Shown: positions 17,193 through 32,267 of the stretch, one piece after another
How the letters are laid out: the number at the start of each line of letters is the position of its first letter
Numbering within the stretch: the stretch's first letter is position 1
NCBI GenBank assembly: GCA_913057205.1
Contig: CAJXNO010000029.1
Coordinates: 1 to 35,259, forward strand
DNA length: 35,259 nucleotides
Origin: an uncultured Flavobacteriales bacterium
GTDB taxonomy: Bacteria; Bacteroidota; Bacteroidia; Flavobacteriales_G; Salibacteraceae
Direction: 5' to 3'
Notes under the pieces: model-generated
Database searches by the model: none
What the model was told of the DNA's origin: nothing
What the model saw: only the letters and a program-made list of their open reading frames with translations
Position numbers and translations under genes: made by a program

Positions 17193-20100
17193 CTAGCCTG
17201 ACAAGGTGAAGCGCAAGCTGAATCCAGCATTGATGTTCGAGGTCGGGAAGGAGTTGGAAATGGCAGGACGATTCGCTACCCAATCATAGAACAAGCGCAA
17301 GGTCAATGACTGTGTTAGCACGTAGTCTCCTGTGATCTTCAGTGAATAAACCCGTTGCCCTGCCGTTGTCTGTGTCTCCTGTTCTACAATCTTCCTGATC
17401 AGCGTCCTAGAGTCCCTGATACTGAAATCCGCTCGGAGTGTCAAGTCACTGTTCAGCGTATTACCCCTCAATGTGAACGGTAGCTTCACGTCCTTCAAGG
17501 TGTAGCCTGTACCCACGATGTACTCCATGTTTCCAATCTCCGTGATCTGGTTGTTGGTCGTACTCAAGGTCATCGTTCGGTCCCTTCGGATCTCTACCCG
17601 AGTCAGCAAGCTATTCTTCCAGGTCATATCAAAGTTGATCAATGGCGAGAAGGACTCACTGATGGTAACCTGACCGATGATGTACTCCGGCTGAATCCTG
17701 AAGCTATCCAAAGCGAAGGTGTTATCACGCGCCGCCTGCTTCTGGTAACCACCAACTGTGTAGTTCGAACGATAACTGTGGTTGATACTTACGCTTCGGA
17801 AGTATTTCTGGAAGAACTTGATCTTATTCAAACCCGTGTAATTGATCCTCCAGTTCGGAAGTGGTAGCACCCTAAGCCCACCCAACCGCACATCATTGGC
17901 GCCTTGTCCGGTATATGCCGCCAAGAAGGCAGGAATCAAAACATCTTGGTGGGTAGCGTCATAGCCTACCGTATATCCTGCCGAATCCAAGGCATTGATG
18001 TTCTCATTCTCTCCGATCCTGTTCGATATCGTACGTCTGTTGTCTAAGAACTGATTATAGATCGTACGGTTGCTGCTATCCACCCGCTGGAAGGCCGTGG
18101 CGATCGAAAGAATAGAGGCACTGTAGTTACCCGTAATCAACTCGGTGTTATTGTCTGTGAAGCGTGGGTTTGGAATGGTATCGTTGTAGTTCCAATAGCT
18201 CGTGCTCGACTCTGACGCTGTTTGATTCAAGGTTACATCGATGCGCAAGTCCCTCATCGGCTGAATACTCGATCGGAAGGACAGGTTCTCCGTGGTATTC
18301 TGCATGTACGGGTTAAAGAGGTTCCGGTTGCGGATCAACCAGTCTTGTTCATTTCCAGCCCAGTCTGCGAAATGTGTTCCCGTGTCACCAAAATTTGTTT
18401 GCTGCCCGAAGACGAATCCCGGGCCTGGGGCCATAACCGCATTGGGATCCATACCGAGGTAGGTGGATTCATGCTTAAACCCAGGTAAGGTAATACCCCG
18501 ATTCAATGAGTAAGTACCCGAAACATTCTTCACACTCATCAAGAAGCGCGCTGCTCCTTTAAGCACTTTCAAATCGCGTTCTTTCTCTTCTTCCTCTTCT
18601 TCTTCTTCGGCCTCTAACTCGCCTCCTTTGTTGCGTTTTGCGGATGCTCCCACATCACGTCCTCTTTTCGGAGCACTTCCTCGGTTCGCCTCTCGTAAGA
18701 ACGGCACTTTGTTGTAGAGCGATAGTAGGTTCAGGGTAGCATTCAACTGCAATTGCTGCCCATTCGACACCGTATGGCCAATCGTATCTCCACGATAGCC
18801 AATGCCATTCTCAATGTTTTCTCGACGTTGCTGAGGATCAATCAATGGCCCGCGCCTCCATTCATAATTCCCTGTGTAGCGCGTACTCACATTGGTCCAA
18901 TCCAAGAAGGGGATCTTATTCAATGGCAGGCTGTACGATACGCTCGCATTGTGGTTATAATTGGTGGTCAGTCCAAATTCTCTCAAACTCGACAACACCG
19001 AATCTCGGTGTGCCTCATAGCTTCCTTCGTTGAAGTTGATAGAGCCATCTGGATTCAAGCCATAACCTCCTTTACCTGGCCCCTCCCCTTCTGGTCGCAT
19101 GACTTCTTCTCCTTCAAATTCACGCACCAATGCCCGGTTATTGGCATTGAAGTCGATCTTGATCGCTTTACTCAAATCATAGCTCAGGTTGTAGGATCGG
19201 TTCCAGTTGAAGGCTTTATCAACGAACGGTGGCTGATCCAAAGTGGCCTCGGGGTTCAGGTTTCTGATCTTACGCTCCGAATAGCGCCGATCGAATTCAT
19301 TCCTGATCGCTACCTGCTTAGGCACCAAGGAGAAGTTGAAGTCTTTGATCAAACGCAGGTACTTCGATTTTCGCAAGAACTTCACCTTGCTGAAAGGCTC
19401 ATAGACCTTCGGGCTGTTCGTGAAGTTGTAGGCGAGTCCACCGCGGTAGTTCCGCGTAAAGTTGTACTCCGTGTTAAAGTCTCGATAATTTATTTCCGTG
19501 AAGGCATAGGTAGCCGATAGGTTCGAGACATCGTAAAACCGTGAAGGACCATCACTGGTCTTCTCCTTCCTAACGTTGGTGAAGTTCAAGCTCTTTCGAG
19601 TGGTGACCGTTTGAGAGATCGAACGCAAGCTGTCTCGTTCGTCGGGATCGCGTTCATCCAAATAGATCTCCATCGGCGTGTCTGGTTCCTCAGGAGCGAA
19701 TTGGGGTGTGCTTGTATTTTGAGAGTAGCCCACATACATAGGCACCTTCACCCCGGTCTTCTCCGGCAAGAACTTATCCAGCTGCACCTGTGCCGAGGCG
19801 TCCAAATTCGTAATGGTCTCCCGTTGACGTTCGCTCACACGAGATTCCAGCGCACCCCAGTTAGGCGTGGTGATTTGACCGGAAACTGCCACCGTAGCAA
19901 AGTCCGCCAGGTTCGCAGAGACCCTTGCCATGGCCGCCTCACCTCCACTCTGATCAAAGTGGGTCAAGCGAAGTTCATTCGCCCAGACTTCCACACACTT
20001 CGGTAAGCCATCGTCGTTCGGATTATCGCGCTTCGCGGGATTGCGCACCCCGATCATGACCACGCGCGCATCCGCAAGGTTTGGATTACCGACCACATAA

Positions 20101-23100
20101 ATCTTCCTACCGGCCTCTGAATTGACCTCATACCGCTGGTTAAGTTGCACGTCCCCCTCCAAACCTAATCGTTCATTCCTTTCGCGCTTAGCGCGGAAGA
20201 GCTCTTCGAACTCGATGACCACGTTGTTTTCCACTGGCCAGACCGCCTGCTGATCGGATATCACATCGTTTTGATAGACCCCGGGTTGAGTGATGGTAAC
20301 CGGGGTTTCGTATTCGTAGTAGTTATCGGTAAAGTCAGTACCTACCCGAATGAAGACCCGAATGTCGTCGTCGTCCACCAGCTGTGTTTGATCGAATGAC
20401 TCCGCGTGCAGGAACATCTGCAACTTCTTGAAAGAACGCATGTCTAACTGCACGTTGCGGAAGGCGGCTTGTGCCTTACCATCCTCCAAACCACAGGCCT
20501 GAAGCTGCAAAGACTGCTCATTCTGACGTGCCAAGTTCGGTGCACCCGCTTGGATCTCCCGCTGCAATTGAGGTGGCAGCACGTAGTTCACCGGTTGCTT
20601 CGAAGCGTTCTCCTCAATGTTAACCGCACCGATGTTGAAGCTCACGTTCGGGTCGTCTGCGATCACCTCACCTTCCTGATCCAAGTCGCCAATGAAGCGA
20701 CGCCATTCCCCACGCACCAATTCCAAGCGAGCAAAACGAAGCACCACCGGATTCTCGAAGCCTTTCATGAACATACGCATGAAACGGATCGAACGGAGGT
20801 CTTGGATATTACCCACTCGCTTATCGAACTCGCGTACCGGAATACGAAACTGGATCCAGCGAACGGTACGCTCTGGCTGACCTTGTGGTGAAGCTTCCAA
20901 GATGGCGTTGATGTAGTTTTTACCCTCCTGAGACAAGCCTTGAGGCGAGATATCCACCTTGTATTGGAAATAGCTTTCTACGTTGTCGAGGGTGTTGTCT
21001 CGGTTGATATCCTCTGCATCAGGAAGGGTGGATGCGCTGGTAGGATATCCCGGTGCATTCTCCTGAGATGATTGCTCGGAAGTAGGACTGTTGCCATCTG
21101 GACCGTTGAACATCTTGTAGCGTTCAAGGATGTTCAGCTCTTGCTGGTCGTAGTCGTCGTCGCGGTAGAAGTTGTAGTTATCGTGAGATGGATCCTCCAA
21201 GAGGCGATCGAGGATCTCCGGGTTACCAGAGAGTCGTGAGGTCAATGGCTGCACGTAGGCTGAATCAAAGAACGCCTGCTCCTCTTGGTCGCGCAAACCA
21301 TCAAACCCAACGTCTTGAAATGGCCGGGTTGCTGGGTTGTTATCAAAGGCATTAACGATCTGTTGTCCGCGCGGAATACGACCCCACTGGGTGAAGTTCT
21401 CTGGGTTGCTGAGATCGCTTGCGCCCTCCTCGGTTGTTGGGAAGCCGTTCTCAAAACTCTTGATCTCGTCCTTCAAGATGTCCTCAGATATGTTACCGAT
21501 GTTGAAGTAAAGTGCTCCGTCGGTCTCATAACCTGGCGAACCAGGGTTTCCCTCGGTTTCAGCTTCCGCATAGGGGTCCATCATCCAAAACTGAATGAAC
21601 TCAATGTTTGCCGCATCAAAGTCGGTTTGGTCAATGCGACGCTGGATACCCGCCCAGCGTGTTTCTGGTCTTGCCAGTGTTCCTTGATCCGTTAAACCAG
21701 CCGTGGCACCTGGCACGGGATCCACATCATAGTTGTAAGGCCCCGGCTCATCGGGATAGAACGCCAAATCAAACATGTTTGTCCTGAAGTTCTGCAAGCC
21801 CTGAGCCGTATTGAACTCCCGGTTAGGAAACACTTCCTGCTCGAAGACCTGACGTTGTAAGTGGTTCTGTTGGATATCTGGGTTTCCTCTGATGTGTTCA
21901 GGAGTAGTGTTATCGTCCCGATAGAAAAGGTCATCGATGGTGTACCAAGACATTCGAGCCCGGTTCTTATTGAAGGTGAGATCGTTGCGGAACTGCGATT
22001 CCGTCGCCTCTGGGAAGAGGTCCGGCTGACCTTGCGGGGTACTGGCCATCGACCACAACGTGAAGGTTCTCAGGTCAATGGTACTCTGGCTTCCCTCAAA
22101 GTCGTCAATGAAGGAATTACCCTCGTTTCCGATGGCCCTGGAGTGCCCTGGAAAGAGCTTGGCCGCCTCACCCATGATGGTGTAGGTCGACTTCTCTTTG
22201 GTATCGATGAGGGGAATCTTGTCTACTATGGAAGTCAGGAATTGCGACTCACCTGAATAGTTACCATCGATTCCGACTACCGTATTGCTGATCGGCTCAT
22301 CACCAAAGTTCACCTTCTGGGTCAACGGTCGTTCTGAGAGGTTCATGAAGGTACCTCCGAAGTTCAGGTCATCTGATACTTTGTAATCAAAACGTGATGC
22401 AAAAAGGGCCTTGCGGTTGATGCCGAAGGCCGAGTTACTCTCTAAGGACACGTTGATGGGTATGCCCGATTCCAGAATGCCTTGGTTGATGATCTTCACG
22501 GTACCCAAGGTGTAGTCTACCGTGTAATCCGTGTTTTCCATGAGCTGTTGCCCACCTGCCGTAACACGCACCGAGCCCTCAGGCACATTGAAGGCATTGA
22601 GGCGGATTTCTGAACTGTTGGCACTTTGGTACCTACCCTGAATGCTGAATCGATTGACCTGCGGGAAGTTGTATTGGGCGTTGGCTTGGGTGTTCGTATA
22701 CAGCGAGTCGAAGGCATAGCGTTCTGCCAATGCTGCATCACCGGTGACCGCGATGATCTCATCCCTAAGGTGCGATCCAAAAGGTTCCAGCACAGGGAAG
22801 AAGATGCGTCCGTTGGCTGGGTTCACCGTGATCTGCGGATTGGCTAAGAAGTCGAACATACCATCCGGCACCTGTGCGTTGTTGTTGTTGATGCGGTCCA
22901 GTGCAACCACTTGTAACAGGGGACGGTCATTAAAGCCAGGCTGGTCGATTGGCAGGTAGTTGATGTCGATGCCCTTATTGCGATCGAGATACCAAATACC
23001 CAACTCAAAGCCCGTGTTGCTCAACTGATAGGCTCCGATGGAGTAAACGTTCTTCATCATCAGGTCCCACATCGGGAAGCGGGTATTGAGCTCGTTGCTC

Positions 23101-24575
23101 TTCAGCATCTTCAAGATCAGTGCCTCGTCACCGTTGCTTTCGTTGGAGAACTCACCCACCTTGTAGGTCTTTCCGTTGTAGGTATACTCAAAAGATACCG
23201 CCAATACCTGGTTCGGCTGCAGCTCTTGTACCATGGAGATGTAACCCAACTGTGCGTTCAAGTTGTAATCCCTACCTGGCTCAAGCTTTCGTGCCAGCTC
23301 CACCTTGTTGTAGTCAAATCGGCTTTGGAGGCCGAAGCTCTCCAAGCGCTGTGACGACCGATCAAAGCCACGTACCAATTCGTCTTGGTAAACCTGACGA
23401 TATACATCATTGGCCCCGTTGGCTGCCGGTCGCGAGCTGTTTTGGTTCGGATTACCTCCCGAGAAGGATGGGTTGTAAACACGTCTGGATTCACCCAAAT
23501 CCTGGAAGGCAACGACGTTCCTGTTCTGATCGGTAGAGAAATTGGTGTTGGTCACCCAAACCTCCACACGTGTGATGTTCACACTGGAATTGATAATGGG
23601 AGGATTCGCCAAAGCGCGCTCATAGATATCCCGGAAGAAATGCGAGAGGAAGTAGTGTTTGTTGCCTTCATACTCATCCGCCTTCACTTCGAATTCCACC
23701 TCCTGAGCACCCCCTTCAGTGCTGATCTCTCGTCGCTCACTTTTCTGCTGCGTGTAAACCGAGGTCACGGTCAATCGACCAAACTTCAACTCAGACTTTA
23801 CCCCAAAGAGCGACTGACTACCGGAGATCAGGTTGCTTTGCAGTGGCAGCGAGACGTTACCCAACTCCAACTTCTGGATGATCTCATCCTCATAGCCGTT
23901 GTACTCCAACTTCATCTGGTTCTCGAAGTCGAAGGTCGCTTGGGTATTGTAGTTGGTTTGAATCTTCAGCTTGTCGCCGATGTTACCGATCACGTTGAGC
24001 TGGATGTTCTGCCGGAAATCAAAAACGGTGATCCGACGCTGGTTCACCGGTATCGCTGGGTTGTCGGTTTTCGAACTGTTCAATCCGAAGATCAACTCCG
24101 CAGATCCATTCGGACGTATCTCGATCGTGTTGCCCCCAAAGATTCGATCGAAGCCTTCTCCTTCTACGTTGATCGACGGACGAAAACTTCCTCCACCCGA
24201 AGAACCATCCTCACTGTCGCCCGCTTCAATGGCTTCCTTCTCGATGTCCTTCCAGTTGTCGTTCATCGATTTCCTAGCCTGGTAATCCTGGTATTGATCG
24301 AAAGAAAGGTAGGACGGCGGACGATAATTCAACTCACCGTATTTCTGCTGATACTCGTAGTTTCCGGTCTCTGGATCGTACTCGAATTCGGTCTCTACAC
24401 CTGTTGGTGGCTCGCCATAAAGCTTGCGGTTATCATCCTGTAACGGGTCATAGGTATCCTGAAACGGAAATAGCATGTCATTGCCCGTGGTATCCTCCTG
24501 ACTATAAAGCAGGAAAGGCATCACAAAGAATGATGCCCATAGTAGTAAAACCCTATGTAATGAGAGGAGCCGCAA
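17193..24575 (-). CDS. sprA: SprA/Sov, type IX secretion outer-membrane translocon
   Basis: A very large (2460-residue) protein that matches SprA/Sov in size, N-terminal signal peptide (LLLWASFFVMPFLLYSQ) and gene neighbourhood. SprA forms the giant 36-strand outer-membrane channel of the type IX secretion system, which exports proteins with C-terminal sorting domains and is needed for gliding adhesin secretion. Recognisable segments include FQDTYDPLQDD, the INVEGEGFDRIFGGNTIEIR region, LELGNVSLPLQSNLISGSQS and NEGNSFIDDFEGSQSTIDL. The last third is beta-rich and ends in FSLRFTLSG. The only usable start is TTG at 24575; a downstream ATG lies inside the signal peptide and would destroy it. A polyglutamate stretch lies near 18580-18625. 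It follows ruvA by 15 bases in the maeB-ruvA-sprA operon. Partner PorV/PorN/PorL genes are not in the window. Confidence 0.96.
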   Translation of the reverse strand: MRLLSLHRVLLLWASFFVMPFLLYSQEDTTGNDMLFPFQDTYDPLQDDNRKLYGEPPTGVETEFEYDPETGNYEYQQKYGELNYRPPSYLSFDQYQDYQARKSMNDNWKDIEKEAIEAGDSEDGSSGGGSFRPSINVEGEGFDRIFGGNTIEIRPNGSAELIFGLNSSKTDNPAIPVNQRRITVFDFRQNIQLNVIGNIGDKLKIQTNYNTQATFDFENQMKLEYNGYEDEIIQKLELGNVSLPLQSNLISGSQSLFGVKSELKFGRLTVTSVYTQQKSERREISTEGGAQEVEFEVKADEYEGNKHYFLSHFFRDIYERALANPPIINSSVNITRVEVWVTNTNFSTDQNRNVVAFQDLGESRRVYNPSFSGGNPNQNSSRPAANGANDVYRQVYQDELVRGFDRSSQRLESFGLQSRFDYNKVELARKLEPGRDYNLNAQLGYISMVQELQPNQVLAVSFEYTYNGKTYKVGEFSNESNGDEALILKMLKSNELNTRFPMWDLMMKNVYSIGAYQLSNTGFELGIWYLDRNKGIDINYLPIDQPGFNDRPLLQVVALDRINNNNAQVPDGMFDFLANPQITVNPANGRIFFPVLEPFGSHLRDEIIAVTGDAALAERYAFDSLYTNTQANAQYNFPQVNRFSIQGRYQSANSSEIRLNAFNVPEGSVRVTAGGQQLMENTDYTVDYTLGTVKIINQGILESGIPINVSLESNSAFGINRKALFASRFDYKVSDDLNFGGTFMNLSERPLTQKVNFGDEPISNTVVGIDGNYSGESQFLTSIVDKIPLIDTKEKSTYTIMGEAAKLFPGHSRAIGNEGNSFIDDFEGSQSTIDLRTFTLWSMASTPQGQPDLFPEATESQFRNDLTFNKNRARMSWYTIDDLFYRDDNTTPEHIRGNPDIQQNHLQRQVFEQEVFPNREFNTAQGLQNFRTNMFDLAFYPDEPGPYNYDVDPVPGATAGLTDQGTLARPETRWAGIQRRIDQTDFDAANIEFIQFWMMDPYAEAETEGNPGSPGYETDGALYFNIGNISEDILKDEIKSFENGFPTTEEGASDLSNPENFTQWGRIPRGQQIVNAFDNNPATRPFQDVGFDGLRDQEEQAFFDSAYVQPLTSRLSGNPEILDRLLEDPSHDNYNFYRDDDYDQQELNILERYKMFNGPDGNSPTSEQSSQENAPGYPTSASTLPDAEDINRDNTLDNVESYFQYKVDISPQGLSQEGKNYINAILEASPQGQPERTVRWIQFRIPVREFDKRVGNIQDLRSIRFMRMFMKGFENPVVLRFARLELVRGEWRRFIGDLDQEGEVIADDPNVSFNIGAVNIEENASKQPVNYVLPPQLQREIQAGAPNLARQNEQSLQLQACGLEDGKAQAAFRNVQLDMRSFKKLQMFLHAESFDQTQLVDDDDIRVFIRVGTDFTDNYYEYETPVTITQPGVYQNDVISDQQAVWPVENNVVIEFEELFRAKRERNERLGLEGDVQLNQRYEVNSEAGRKIYVVGNPNLADARVVMIGVRNPAKRDNPNDDGLPKCVEVWANELRLTHFDQSGGEAAMARVSANLADFATVAVSGQITTPNWGALESRVSERQRETITNLDASAQVQLDKFLPEKTGVKVPMYVGYSQNTSTPQFAPEEPDTPMEIYLDERDPDERDSLRSISQTVTTRKSLNFTNVRKEKTSDGPSRFYDVSNLSATYAFTEINYRDFNTEYNFTRNYRGGLAYNFTNSPKVYEPFSKVKFLRKSKYLRLIKDFNFSLVPKQVAIRNEFDRRYSERKIRNLNPEATLDQPPFVDKAFNWNRSYNLSYDLSKAIKIDFNANNRALVREFEGEEVMRPEGEGPGKGGYGLNPDGSINFNEGSYEAHRDSVLSSLREFGLTTNYNHNASVSYSLPLNKIPFLDWTNVSTRYTGNYEWRRGPLIDPQQRRENIENGIGYRGDTIGHTVSNGQQLQLNATLNLLSLYNKVPFLREANRGSAPKRGRDVGASAKRNKGGELEAEEEEEEEEKERDLKVLKGAARFLMSVKNVSGTYSLNRGITLPGFKHESTYLGMDPNAVMAPGPGFVFGQQTNFGDTGTHFADWAGNEQDWLIRNRNLFNPYMQNTTENLSFRSSIQPMRDLRIDVTLNQTASESSTSYWNYNDTIPNPRFTDNNTELITGNYSASILSIATAFQRVDSSNRTIYNQFLDNRRTISNRIGENENINALDSAGYTVGYDATHQDVLIPAFLAAYTGQGANDVRLGGLRVLPLPNWRINYTGLNKIKFFQKYFRSVSINHSYRSNYTVGGYQKQAARDNTFALDSFRIQPEYIIGQVTISESFSPLINFDMTWKNSLLTRVEIRRDRTMTLSTTNNQITEIGNMEYIVGTGYTLKDVKLPFTLRGNTLNSDLTLRADFSIRDSRTLIRKIVEQETQTTAGQRVYSLKITGDYVLTQSLTLRLFYDWVANRPAISNSFPTSNINAGFSLRFTLSG

Positions 24576-28387: not shown

Positions 28388-28395
28388 TAACTTTG
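28388..28395 (+). promoter_or_regulatory. -7 promoter box of the TlpA/DUF6029/Omp28 cluster
   Basis: TAACTTTG is a perfect TAnnTTTG match, ending 22 bases before the TlpA-like ATG at 28418. The 157-base gap after cobB holds this element and otherwise only AT-rich sequence. Confidence 0.5.
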
Positions 28396-28417: not shown

Positions 28418-28927
28418 ATGAAGTATTTTCTCACGTTAGCAAGCATTACCCTTCTCGGAATCTCTAGCCTTTTTGCACAAGATGGACGCAAGATCCCAAT
28501 GGTGGAGATCAAGAATATTGACGGTTCTACCTTCAATACCGCTGACATCAAGAACGACGGTCCGATCATCATCAGTTTCTGGGCAACATGGTGCAGTCCT
28601 TGCAAGCGAGAGTTGAATACGATAGCGGAAGACTTTATTGATTGGCAAGATGACACCGGCGTAAAGCTGGTGGCCATCAGCATTGACGATGCACGAAACA
28701 TGCATAAGGTGAAGCCTTACATTGATGGTCAGGCATGGGAGTACGATGTTTACCTCGATCCTAACGCAGACTTCAAGCGCGCGATGAACGTGAACAACGT
28801 ACCACATACCTTTTTGGTAGACAACGATGGCAACATCGTATGGCAGCACAATTCCTATCAGCCGGGTGATGAGGAAGAATTATACGATCTTGTGGTTCGA
28901 CTGGCAGCAGGCGAATCGATCGATTGA
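28418..28927 (+). CDS. TlpA-family periplasmic thioredoxin-like protein
   Basis: 169 residues with a signal peptide (MKYFLTLASITLLGISSLFA, cleaved before QDG). The thioredoxin-fold active site is WCSPCK in SFWATWCSPCKREL (Cys about 57 and 60), and the cis-Pro loop is NNVPHTFLV. It is a TlpA/ResA-type membrane-periplasm disulfide reductant or oxidant by family; electrons would come from a DsbD-like partner not in the window. It is the first gene of a plus-strand cluster with a DUF6029-like barrel, an Omp28-like CxxC lipoprotein and a small barrel. The cysteine-containing neighbours make them plausible redox clients, but this is inference. Confidence 0.94.
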   Translation: MKYFLTLASITLLGISSLFAQDGRKIPMVEIKNIDGSTFNTADIKNDGPIIISFWATWCSPCKRELNTIAEDFIDWQDDTGVKLVAISIDDARNMHKVKPYIDGQAWEYDVYLDPNADFKRAMNVNNVPHTFLVDNDGNIVWQHNSYQPGDEEELYDLVVRLAAGESID

Positions 28928-28959
28928 TCATCATCATCCGACTAACCTAGACGTTTTTC

Positions 28960-30669
28960 ATGTTCAATAAACTGCTCAAAGGCTTCGTCCTTACCACTTT
29001 CATTTTCTCTGGTCAACTGCATGCTCAAGAAGGTGGAGGCATCTTGGATGGAGCCCAGATCCACGGCAACTTCGATCTCTATGCTCAGCAATACAACCGG
29101 GACTCCATCATCGGGGCACCCATTGTTCCTGAGAAAAGCGGTATCAACGCATTCACGAATCTTATCGTAACCAAAGGCAAGTTCAGCGCGGGTACTCGAC
29201 TAGAAAGCTACATGCCGCCGGTTCAAGGTTTCGATCCGCGGTTTGGAGAGCAGCCCATCGGAATCCCTTTCCGCTACGCATCCTTTGATGATGAAGGTTT
29301 AAGCATCACCGTCGGAAACTTCTATGAGCAGTTCGGTAATGGACTCATTCTTCGTGCCTATGAGGAACGTGGATTGGGTATTGATAATGCATTTGATGGT
29401 CTGCGTGTGAAATACACACCCTTCCGCGGACTTCACCTCAAAGGATTGATCGGCAACCAGCGTTACTATTGGCAAAAGAGCGACGGTATTGTCCGTGCGT
29501 TTGATACAGAGGTGCAGTTCAATGAGATGTTCTCCGCAATGGAAAGCAGTGCACTTCGATTTACCATCGGCGGTAGCTTCGTGAGCAAGTTTCAACAAGC
29601 CGGTAATTCCTCATTGCGTTTGCCTGAAAACGTCGCGGGTGGTGCTGGTCGCTTCCAGCTCAACTATAAGAATTTTGGTTTCATGGGTGAATACGCTTTC
29701 ATTGCGAATGACCCAACCAGAGACAACAAGTACATCTACAGGAACGGACAAGGCATCTTCCTGTCTGCGACATACTCACGAAAAGGTTTCGGGATCAACG
29801 TCTCGGCAAAATCCATCGATAACATGGAATTCCGCAGCGACCGTGAAGCAGGCTTCAATGACCTGTTCATCAATTACCTGCCGGCATTGACACGTCAACA
29901 CACCTACAACCTTTCGGCAACCCTCTATCCTTATGCAACACAGCCGAATGGAGAGATCGGTTTGCAAGGTGATTTGATCTACACCATACCAAGGGGTAGT
30001 GCGATCGGTGGAAAGTACGGAACAACGATCCAGATCAACGTAGCATTGGTGAACTCCATGGAACGGTCTTACTACGCCCATCCTAATGCAGACACGGCCA
30101 TTGCTTTACTGGAGCAACAAACCTATCTGCCGGAGGATCCAAAGCGATTGGGGTACAAAACAGACCTATTGGCGTGGGGCGATGAGGTGTACTACCGCGA
30201 CTACAACATTGAAATCGACCGGAAATTCACAAAGAACTTCAAGCTGAAGGGTAGCTACATCTATCAGAACTACAACATCGAGCTCATCCAATTCAAGGTA
30301 TCGCCGAATGTGGAGGCGCACATCGGGGTACTTGAAGGTTTACACAAATTGAGCCGAAAGCACTCGATCCGCTGGGAGGCACAGGCCTTGTGGACAGAGC
30401 AGGATCAAGGCGACTGGGTATTCGGTTTGATCGAATACGGTTACTCTCCGCACTGGATCGTGACCGTGCTCAACCAATACAACTACGGCAACAAAGTGAA
30501 GGACCTTCGCGTTAATTACCCAACGGCGCAAGTGACCTATGTATGGCGTGCCCACCGACTGAGCATTGGCTACGGAAGGCAGCGTGCGGGTATTTTCTGC
30601 GTCGGTGGTGTGTGTAGAAACGTACCTGCAGCGAATGGCTTGACCTTGGCCATCACTAGCAGCTTCTAA
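28960..30669 (+). CDS. DUF6029-like outer-membrane beta-barrel protein
   Basis: A 569-residue exported protein. The signal peptide is MFNKLLKGFVLTTFIFSGQ to LHAQ; the rest is a strand-rich barrel ending in F (AITSSF). GNFYEQFGNGLILRAYEERG (about residues 119-138), LGIDNAFDGLRVKYTPFRG and GLIGNQRYYW match the Bacteroidota family I know as DUF6029. A CX4C pair (C547 and C552, in GIFCVGGVCRNVPAANG) lies in the last hairpin near the C-terminus; this cysteine pair is unusual for an outer-membrane barrel. It starts 32 bases after the TlpA-like gene and is followed by the Omp28-like gene after 10 bases. Function is unknown; the family name is from memory. Confidence 0.85.
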   Translation: MFNKLLKGFVLTTFIFSGQLHAQEGGGILDGAQIHGNFDLYAQQYNRDSIIGAPIVPEKSGINAFTNLIVTKGKFSAGTRLESYMPPVQGFDPRFGEQPIGIPFRYASFDDEGLSITVGNFYEQFGNGLILRAYEERGLGIDNAFDGLRVKYTPFRGLHLKGLIGNQRYYWQKSDGIVRAFDTEVQFNEMFSAMESSALRFTIGGSFVSKFQQAGNSSLRLPENVAGGAGRFQLNYKNFGFMGEYAFIANDPTRDNKYIYRNGQGIFLSATYSRKGFGINVSAKSIDNMEFRSDREAGFNDLFINYLPALTRQHTYNLSATLYPYATQPNGEIGLQGDLIYTIPRGSAIGGKYGTTIQINVALVNSMERSYYAHPNADTAIALLEQQTYLPEDPKRLGYKTDLLAWGDEVYYRDYNIEIDRKFTKNFKLKGSYIYQNYNIELIQFKVSPNVEAHIGVLEGLHKLSRKHSIRWEAQALWTEQDQGDWVFGLIEYGYSPHWIVTVLNQYNYGNKVKDLRVNYPTAQVTYVWRAHRLSIGYGRQRAGIFCVGGVCRNVPAANGLTLAITSSF

Positions 30670-30679
30670 TTTGAACGTT

Positions 30680-31627
30680 ATGAAAACAAACAGATCCCTT
30701 CTCACGCTATTAGCCCTCTGTTTTTCCTTGCTGGCCTTCAACGCTTGCGACAAGGTAGAGCTGCCCATTCCTGAGCCGAATGTGGTCATTCCAGATGGGA
30801 ACGTGAACGACAGCATCACCTTCCCGACCATTGATTCGGCCAACATCAATCGATCTTTTAAGAAGACCTACGTAGAAGAATACACCGGGCACCAGTGCAT
30901 CACTTGTCCGTTTAACACGAAACTCTTGTTAGCTCAAGCCAAGGATAATCCGGAGCGTATGGTCATTACTGCTATACATGCCGGGCAGTTCGCTAACGTG
31001 GACCCGCCAAACTACCCCACGGATTTCAATACTCCTTTCGGAACAGAGCTTTTTCAGCACTATGGGATTTCAGCTCATCCCATCCCAAGCGCAATCATCA
31101 ATCGACGTCGTTTTAGCACTTTCGGTAACTCGATGATTTTTAACGGAGCTACCCAATTTTGGGATGAACCCATCGACGAAGTCAATGCGAACAATGAGAC
31201 CGATTTCGCAATGGGTGTAGCCGCGGATTACATTGACAGTCTAGACCTGTTTTACATCCGTGTAAGTGTTGAGGTCCTGAACGATGTAAGTGATAATTAC
31301 CGCTTACTCGTCCTGTGCTTAGAAGACAGTGTGATCGCTCCGCAACTAGATGGTCAGGCCGATCCTGATATATATCCTGGTAGGATCGTTACGGATTATG
31401 CGCATCGACATGTATTAAGGGCGAAGCTGTCTCAAGACCAATCGCTATCCGGAGATCTTTTCATCAATGGTGGCGCCGCAGCCAATACCTGGTTCGATTA
31501 CACCTTGAATGCAAACATGCCTGACAATGTTGAGGACCCTGAAAAAACAAGCATTGTGGTTGTTCTGACCGATCCTGCAACAGAAGAAGTCCTACAAGCC
31601 GAAGAAGCACATGTCAACGTTCGCTAG
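30680..31627 (+). CDS. Omp28-related outer-membrane lipoprotein with CxxC motif
   Basis: 315 residues from ATG 30680 (MKTNRSLLTLLALCFSLLAF); an upstream TTG at 30671 is less likely. The N-terminus has a lipobox-type end AFNAC, so it is a probable lipoprotein. The Omp28 thioredoxin-like domain opens with KKTYVEEYTGHQCITCPFNT, whose CITC is a CxxC redox motif (about residues 75-78). VITAIHAGQF follows, and then the ISAHPIPSAIINRR segment equivalent to a cis-Pro loop. Omp28 is a surface protein first seen in Porphyromonas. The gene overlaps the next reading frame by 17 bases. Together with the TlpA-like gene and the cysteine-bearing barrel it suggests an extracytoplasmic thiol role; direct evidence is absent. 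Confidence 0.92.
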   Translation: MKTNRSLLTLLALCFSLLAFNACDKVELPIPEPNVVIPDGNVNDSITFPTIDSANINRSFKKTYVEEYTGHQCITCPFNTKLLLAQAKDNPERMVITAIHAGQFANVDPPNYPTDFNTPFGTELFQHYGISAHPIPSAIINRRRFSTFGNSMIFNGATQFWDEPIDEVNANNETDFAMGVAADYIDSLDLFYIRVSVEVLNDVSDNYRLLVLCLEDSVIAPQLDGQADPDIYPGRIVTDYAHRHVLRAKLSQDQSLSGDLFINGGAAANTWFDYTLNANMPDNVEDPEKTSIVVVLTDPATEEVLQAEEAHVNVR

Positions 31628-32267
31628 AGTCACCTTCGTTGTTCTGTTTGCTTTCATTCTAGGTGCTTGTGCCTCTGAACTAAATGCTCAAGAAGCCATC
31701 AAACGAAGCAAGGGCGAGTTCATCGGTTTGATGCGAGGAGGGATTGTAGGTAGTCATATCTACAATGATGACTTCGGTGGCTACAATAAACTTGGGGGCG
31801 TCGGAGGCTTTGGCGTTAACAGCAATATCCTGCGGTCAGGAAACCTGCAATTCGAGATCCTGTATGCGATGCGTGGAAGTCGCCGACCGGCGGACCCAGA
31901 AAAAGGGATTATTCCGATGCGGTTGGGCGCTCATTACATCGATCTACCCCTGCTTTATTCGAATCAGATTTCTCGGTTCAAGTATGAAGTTGGATTAGTT
32001 AATTCGGTACTCGTATTCTCCAACATTACCGTCAATGGAGTTGAAGTTCCCTTGGTGAATGGCATGGGCTTCAATCGCTATGAACTTGGCGGATTATTAG
32101 GTGTTAGCTTGTCCATCAATGATAAATGGGATGCAAACGTCCGATTCCAGCACTCCATCACACCAGCAATGGGATCCTTCTTTCTCGTGAACGGGTTCAG
32201 CATTACGGGTGGCGCATTTAACAATGCTGTTTCCTTCTGCTTGGTCAGGATGTTCCGACCGAATTAA
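31611..32267 (+). CDS. Small outer-membrane beta-barrel protein (PorT/OmpW-like)
   Basis: 218 residues. The N-terminal region MSTFARVTFVVLFAFILGAC followed by ASELNAQ can be read as either a lipoprotein signal (lipobox LGAC) or a signal peptidase I signal cut after NAQ. The rest is a typical eight-to-ten-strand Bacteroidota outer-membrane barrel with YNKLGGVGGFGVNSNI, LHFEILY-like strands (LQFEILYAMRGSRR), LRLGAHYIDLPLLY-type core (MRLGAHYIDLPLLY) and RFQHSI near the end. The ATG lies inside the Omp28 gene (17-base overlap), so translation is coupled. It belongs to the porin-family/outer-membrane b-barrel group; a specific function is not evident. Confidence 0.85.
   Translation: MSTFARVTFVVLFAFILGACASELNAQEAIKRSKGEFIGLMRGGIVGSHIYNDDFGGYNKLGGVGGFGVNSNILRSGNLQFEILYAMRGSRRPADPEKGIIPMRLGAHYIDLPLLYSNQISRFKYEVGLVNSVLVFSNITVNGVEVPLVNGMGFNRYELGGLLGVSLSINDKWDANVRFQHSITPAMGSFFLVNGFSITGGAFNNAVSFCLVRMFRPN

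Follow-up and report, generated by a model that had tools for sequence, protein, structure and literature searches.

A candidate thiol-disulfide module of the Bacteroidota outer membrane built around a TlpA-DUF6029 gene pair

Introduction

The outer-membrane barrel LptD needs functional disulfides, which are handled by the general Dsb enzymes. The locus described here likewise encodes a barrel with a conserved cysteine pair, of the family DUF6029, but instead of general Dsb enzymes it has a dedicated TlpA-like protein that co-occurs with the barrel. This protein resembles the TlpA/ResA/DsbE oxidoreductases in fold family, WCxPC motif, cis-proline and secretory signal, but it belongs to a subfamily tied to DUF6029 and stays below the NCBIfam cut-offs (78.7 of 170 bits for ResA, 48 of 230 for TlpA and 43.3 of 123.15 for DsbE). 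The Foldseek list for the barrel contains, at rank 18, chain 6r2q_B of the Mtr complex, which we take to be MtrB. The MtrCAB porin-cytochrome conduit also offers a redox passage through a barrel, but the present locus would use thiols and no heme, and the likeness is one of resemblance only.

Several described proteins of Bacteroidota invite closer comparison (papers are cited by PMC number, each from excerpts). HBP35 of Porphyromonas gingivalis has a surface form, thioredoxin activity and hemin binding (PMC2907840). Its two-domain fold is that of the modelled Omp28 protein of our locus, but the latter is a predicted lipoprotein without a T9SS tail and lies in one run with TlpA and a barrel. 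Paraprevotella clara 00502, annotated as Omp28-related, is exported by the T9SS to the surface and recruits trypsin; it too is an Omp28-related surface protein, but trypsin recruitment sets it apart, and the excerpts of PMC9477747 mention neither a barrel nor TlpA. The barrels SprF and PorG are linked to GldK by disulfides, SprF through its C-tail (PMC12635249). There, as proposed here, cysteines of Bacteroidota barrels engage in disulfide exchange, but the partner GldK is periplasmic whereas the pair in DUF6029 is predicted in the last outer loop. PorA of P. gingivalis (PGN_0123/PG2172; PMC7712824, Table 2) is required for normal T9SS expression, and according to its authors further factors are needed to connect PorA at the surface with PorY in the inner membrane (PMC7712824). 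In the open-access literature searched, a single paper mentions DUF6029; it likens the family to Wzi-like barrels, with polysaccharide export as an idea (PMC9603273); among our loci, one glycosyltransferase lies directly before DUF6029 (L073).

A search of the open-access literature, a scope that leaves most subscription papers outside, found nothing joining DUF6029 to TlpA, and the excerpts on HBP35, PorA, SprF/PorG and DUF6029 do not join the parts of the module; Omp28 and TlpA occur together in two papers, on Helicobacter and Brucella. The observations below point to a redox system of the outer membrane, not described so far, in many Bacteroidota.

The locus and the genomes compared

The window is the whole stretch of DNA that was analysed, 35,259 nucleotides long. 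It holds four open reading frames in one plus-strand run, with the motifs WCSPC, FCVGGVCRN and CITC, all placed as an earlier sequence-only reading had claimed:

28388..28395, plus strand: TAACTTTG, promoter-like -7 box
28418-28927, plus strand: TlpA-like thioredoxin-fold protein with secretory signal (Pfam PF00578, E 9.4e-20)
28589..28603, plus strand: WCSPC active site, W58-C62 of the TlpA-like protein
28960-30669, plus strand: DUF6029 outer-membrane barrel, 569 residues (PF19494, E 9.1e-179)
30598..30615, plus strand: CX4C pair C547-C552 (FCVGGVCRN) of DUF6029, on a beta hairpin in the putative last extracellular loop
30680-31627, plus strand: Omp28 lipoprotein, thioredoxin fold plus beta domain (PF11551, E 9.5e-13)
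30896..30907, plus strand: CITC motif of Omp28, C73-C76 counted from ATG 30680
31611-32267, plus strand: small outer-membrane barrel (OMP_b-brl_2, E 3.8e-4, 21 bits, below the cut-off of 27)

The first three genes are separated by 32 and 10 bases and the last two overlap by 17; for Omp28, ATG 30680 was preferred over TTG 30671. The cluster is flanked by a sir2-like gene on one side and a convergent queG on the other. None of the four proteins matches a T9SS sorting domain (Por_Secre_tail or CHU_C) at E 0.01. Ahead of the first gene, where a promoter had been claimed, the TAACTTTG box begins 30 bases before the ATG of the TlpA-like gene; the sigma-70 scan shows no plus-strand site there. Of 35 loci inspected, 7 (one of them the window) have a box of the form TAnnTTTG, presumably the Bacteroidota -7 motif, between -31 and -27. 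The sigma-70 scan (9 promoter-like sites versus 6.3 expected) and the terminator scan (1 site versus 5.3) are uninformative.

Comparison drew on 296 genomes sampled across the phylum and 42 from the order. PF19494 matches occur in 80 of the 296, 78 of them above the cut-off, and in 39 of the 42. From 117 other DUF6029-positive genomes, 100 loci in 99 genomes were fetched, giving 101 with the window; L170-L182 stand outside this count and L035-L040 were excluded as duplicates of six fetched loci. Alignments comprised 88 of 99 intact DUF6029 barrels, near-identical ones dropped (A1); 66 of 76 non-redundant Omp28 frames, the ten dropped being mostly upstream, on the opposite strand or partial (A2); 65 of 91 adjacent TlpAs, also used as profile (A3); and 29 of 33 PorA-like frames (A4). 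Lipoboxes were assigned by regular expression, and T9SS tails by our own profile, with which Pfam agreed in all ten proteins checked.

TlpA and DUF6029 form a constant pair

Clustering in other genomes had been set beforehand as a test of the sequence-only reading. TlpA adjoins DUF6029 in 91 of the 101 loci, across the phylum, and because the gene order recurs in this way the cluster is more than chance. In 86 of these loci the two genes share a strand, with a median of 12 bases between them and at least 700 in three cases, and in five they diverge (four in family f6, one in f3). The other ten loci comprise one fusion, in which TlpA and DUF6029 occupy a single 667-residue frame (L077), two contig edges (L157, L107) and seven where TlpA is unlinked. 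In all seven of the latter genomes (G287, G212, G196, G160, G109, G128, G164), none of which contributed to the TlpA profile, the subfamily was found elsewhere.

Counted over the 296 genomes, with the TlpA subfamily taken up to E 1e-34 and DUF6029 up to E 0.001, 79 genomes have both, none has TlpA only, one has DUF6029 only and 216 have neither. Each of the 79 TlpA-positive genomes has a best score of at least 157.9 bits, by a profile that was built partly from genomes it scored and with 12 candidates scored per genome. Where DUF6029 is present (19 genomes) the best TlpA scored between 158 and 225 bits, and in 16 genomes that lack DUF6029 it did not exceed 111 bits. The single DUF6029-only genome (G227) has a partial match below the cut-off; DUF6029 is also sub-threshold in G183, yet the DUF6029 frame there contains the cysteine pair and has TlpA as its neighbour (L182). 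By Fisher's test p is 4e-72, a value that is overstated because the genomes are related and their kinship is ignored. A better statement is that the pair spans 25 families, at least 13 of which (by eye) also have sampled genomes lacking both genes. Judged by these sequence comparisons, there is good support for the proposal that TlpA and DUF6029 function as a unit. One genome, G180, carries tlpA-DUF6029-omp28 twice (L113, L114).

The TlpA-like protein has a signal peptide and, by eye, no lipobox. Its W58, C59, C62 and cis-proline P129 are present in 91 of 91 adjacent TlpAs.

An invariant cysteine hairpin predicted at the outer face

In the window, DUF6029 matches PF19494 almost over its full length at 596 bits (cut-off 27), and C547 and C552 are its only cysteines. 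Conservation of this pair beside the neighbouring genes, which the earlier reading had made a condition of its proposal, was found throughout the loci examined: the CX4C pair is kept in 99 of 99 intact frames, the sole exception being a DUF6029 truncated at 372 residues (L096, G226), in which the pair was not found and TlpA is retained. A PorA-like T9SS-tailed frame overlaps the end of that truncated gene. A further DUF6029, broken in frame, retains the motif in another frame (L095). Only seven columns are invariant among the 88 aligned barrels (G119, G128, G204, G544, C547, G550 and C552), and the cysteine pair remains so down to 15% identity. In the stretch that starts at residue 36 and stops short of the last 30 residues, 85 of the 99 are free of further cysteines and 14 have some, one of these by way of its fused TlpA.

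The model of the barrel (pLDDT 94.8, pTM 0.88) has about 24 strands by our own count. Its last two membrane strands, 532-541 and 558-568, enclose a hairpin of strands 544-548 and 551-555 with a turn at G549-G550, an arrangement in which C547 and C552 should face each other. Topology was read off the strand list of the model, where short turns and long loops by and large alternate, with the exception of 169-172 (short on the loop side) and of 186-199 and 343-355 (long on the turn side). The C-terminal strand of BAM-inserted barrels ends in the periplasm, which would make the CX4C hairpin extracellular. The pair is thereby predicted in the last extracellular loop, on the outer side of the barrel.

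Thioredoxin-fold companions with a predicted surface location

Omp28 of the window matches PF11551 at 48.8 bits (cut-off 34.9) and falls short of the lipoprotein model NF033782 (91.7 bits, cut-off 150). In its structural model (pLDDT 92.3) a beta domain comes after a thioredoxin fold. The closest solved structure is HBP35 (Z 22.4, rmsd 2.8, 225 residues), with AGR_C_4864 next at Z 16.4 and then, at Z 11.7, the Omp28 domain 2r2c. All 66 aligned rows share C73, C76 and P136. The earlier description of both neighbours of the barrel as thioredoxin-fold proteins is borne out, with CxxC and cis-proline invariant in the aligned rows of TlpA and Omp28 alike. The match to HBP35, which binds hemin (PMC2907840), lends something to the idea of a cofactor site, where hairpin and Omp28 would bind heme or metal and TlpA would keep the ligand cysteines reduced. 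With only glycines and cysteines in its invariant columns, the barrel offers no conserved extra ligand, and such a site appears very improbable.

Of the two thioredoxin-fold neighbours noted in the earlier reading, TlpA is the constant partner of the barrel, in 79 of 80 DUF6029 genomes, but a profile search for Omp28 in five genomes of family f24 gave no match in any of them. What follows DUF6029 in f24 is a TlpA-like T9SS-tailed protein in 8 of 8 loci (the tail confirmed by Pfam for three) and, in 6 of 8, also a TlpA-like predicted lipoprotein. In some other lineages the Omp28 gene itself bears the T9SS tail; the long Omp28 paralogs with a T9SS tail that L146, L147 and L149 carry have no CxxC. 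By family match, with CxxC no criterion, 93 of the 101 loci, drawn from 25 of 26 families, have a second gene of a thioredoxin-fold family within -6/+5 kb, and 84 of the 101 loci have at least one companion that is a predicted lipoprotein or T9SS-tailed. From these counts, a surface-directed thioredoxin-fold protein of varying family is a recurrent companion of DUF6029. Upstream of tlpA on the same strand, L144 has a 630-residue frame with Cleaved_Adhesin, Omp28 and a T9SS tail.

PorA-like proteins near the barrel

Of 34 small T9SS-tailed frames near DUF6029, 31 make up a single family, to which another two can be aligned. Two cysteines line up across these 33, in motifs such as FCWGPLCY that resemble the FCVGGVCR of the barrel. 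A profile of the family (its own 29 rows included) matches 53 frames, 51 with CX3-4C; the exceptions are one with wider cysteine spacing (L078) and one T9SS-tailed frame without the pair (L170:2729-3544, minus strand, 40 bits), the sole PorA-like match in the genome of the window (C14). Against the PDB, the only match below E 0.01 is a weak one to the N-domain of PorA of P. gingivalis (6kjk, E 2.7e-4), whose CFGQC lines up with the cysteine pair of the family. PG2173, the tag following that of PorA, is an Omp28 lipoprotein (PMC9722745), and from the consecutive tags the two genes would be adjacent. On this N-domain match, the aligned CX3C and the consecutive tags, the small T9SS-tailed proteins are probably remote relatives of PorA. 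They differ in occurring here in many families, whereas PMC7712824 reports PorA, by BLAST, only from Porphyromonas. Searched in reverse, with a fragment of PorA, 395 genomes of the class gave 0 matches, an absence that carries no weight.

At E 1e-6 the PorA-like family occurs in 51 of 296 genomes, 42 with the TlpA-DUF6029 pair and 9 without, including one match of 113 bits (G156). In 5 of the 7 genomes with unlinked TlpA, a PorA-like gene lies right beside TlpA (L171-L175), and in G216, where a contig end cuts the DUF6029 locus, TlpA, a PorA-like gene and two Omp28 genes stand together at another contig end (L178). In L102, a single frame of 478 residues fuses Omp28 to a PorA-like domain and a T9SS tail. 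A second T9SS-tailed protein of that locus, 495 residues long (L102:6863-8350, minus strand), contains PorA-like domains and CX3C pairs, three of each.

These proteins could instead be cargo of the barrel. DUF6029 would then be an usher-like channel or docking barrel for them, with a hairpin-to-hairpin disulfide made and broken by TlpA and Omp28. The FimD translocation domain heads the Foldseek list for the barrel (E 7.1e-10, TMq 0.45), the N-domain of PorA resembles the FimH lectin domain and PorA arrives at the surface without the T9SS machinery (PMC7712824), and SprF and PorG show that barrels can be disulfide-linked, to GldK (PMC12635249). What DUF6029 is seen to share with ushers (FimD/PapC) is barrel similarity. 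In VIA-align, however, OccK porins and FimD rank level (Z 19.1 and 18.6), so that the likeness may be generic to large barrels, and neither ranking establishes a function. PorA-like matches are moreover missing from 37 of 79 pair genomes at E 1e-6. Taken together, a role in export or display is unlikely.

T9SS and redox supply

A PorU-family match at E 0.001 is present in 79 of 80 DUF6029 genomes against 222 of 296 overall, a comparison made by eye. As support for the module this co-occurrence is weak, because the distribution follows family lines and two control genomes also have weak PorU matches; the match in G227 is weak as well. G230, the one DUF6029 genome without a PorU match, carries tlpA-DUF6029-Omp28 (L091), which suggests that the module is not strictly dependent on the T9SS. 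In the genome of the window DsbD_TM has a match and VKOR has none, a pattern compatible with a reductive supply of TlpA.

A proposed mechanism and its main competitor

As a unit, an outer-membrane module dedicated to thiol-disulfide chemistry is well supported; the electron direction and a relay across the membrane are our inference. Gene content, clustering, co-occurrence, fusions and invariant cysteines enter the argument as observations, the folds, the topology and the surface location as predictions. To the whole reading, in which TlpA, DUF6029, surface thioredoxins and PorA-like proteins make up the module, we give a probability of about one half. The special periplasmic TlpA, probably held reduced by a DsbD-like protein, would serve DUF6029 by setting or resetting the redox state of the CX4C hairpin, its most likely target, which it might reach through the lumen or before the barrel is inserted. 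At the surface the hairpin would swap disulfides with thioredoxin-fold proteins, namely Omp28 lipoproteins, T9SS-tailed Omp28, TlpA-like lipoproteins or TlpA-like T9SS-tailed proteins, and in about half of the pair genomes also with the small PorA-like CX3-4C proteins. Several points stand against this reading: Omp28 is inconstant, PorA-like proteins occur in only 42 of 79 pair genomes and also in 9 genomes without the pair, L170 lacks the cysteines, L096 keeps its TlpA beside a truncated DUF6029, and G230 carries the three genes with no PorU match.

The electron or disulfide relay from periplasm to surface that the sequence-only reading had suggested gains from the conserved TlpA-DUF6029 unit and the invariant pair, but the pair is predicted outside. 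On the outer side it would be beyond the direct reach of a periplasmic TlpA once the barrel is inserted, and TlpA may for that reason only mature the pair. It is possible, if tentative, that maturation is the whole story: TlpA would be a foldase dedicated to the hairpins of DUF6029 (and of PorA-like proteins), whose disulfides it would make, isomerise or reduce in the periplasm, the finished disulfide would be structural, the barrel a channel, and Omp28 would have other clients. This accounts for a constant TlpA despite a hairpin that ends outside and for TlpA beside PorA-like genes when apart from DUF6029, and LptD, a barrel requiring disulfides, is a precedent. It does not predict the second thioredoxin-fold gene in 93 of 101 loci or the replacement in f24, and a structural pair might sometimes be lost, whereas that of DUF6029 is invariant to 15% identity. 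The outer position of the pair favours hairpin maturation during export, and the recurring surface thioredoxins with their replacement in f24 favour continuing exchange at the surface.

DUF6029 gains a testable role from its constant TlpA partner, an invariant hairpin at the predicted outer face and interchangeable surface thioredoxins. PMC12635249 leaves the thiol-oxidizing proteins of the periplasm unnamed, and the module supplies candidates for them. The link to PorA touches the open question of the mediator between surface PorA and inner-membrane PorY (PMC7712824). That a thiol-disulfide relay through DUF6029 connects surface and periplasmic redox, with PorA-like proteins as surface sensors or clients and the module as the missing mediator between PorA and PorY, the inner-membrane kinase that controls the T9SS, seems doubtful.

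The fourth gene and a nearby SprA-like protein

The cluster had been read as one of four genes. What recurs is the TlpA-DUF6029 core, often with Omp28, which is inconstant; a profile grown from the small barrel collected 28 frames, all in loci of families f1, f53 and f8, and their cysteines vary. Given this limited range and the absence of conserved cysteines, the small barrel is a local addition outside the conserved core. On the same two grounds it was rejected as a PorG-like partner. At 3.8 kb before the cluster, the window also encodes a SprA-like protein of 2460 residues (17193-24575, minus strand; SprA_N, E 1.2e-190), by family the T9SS translocon channel.
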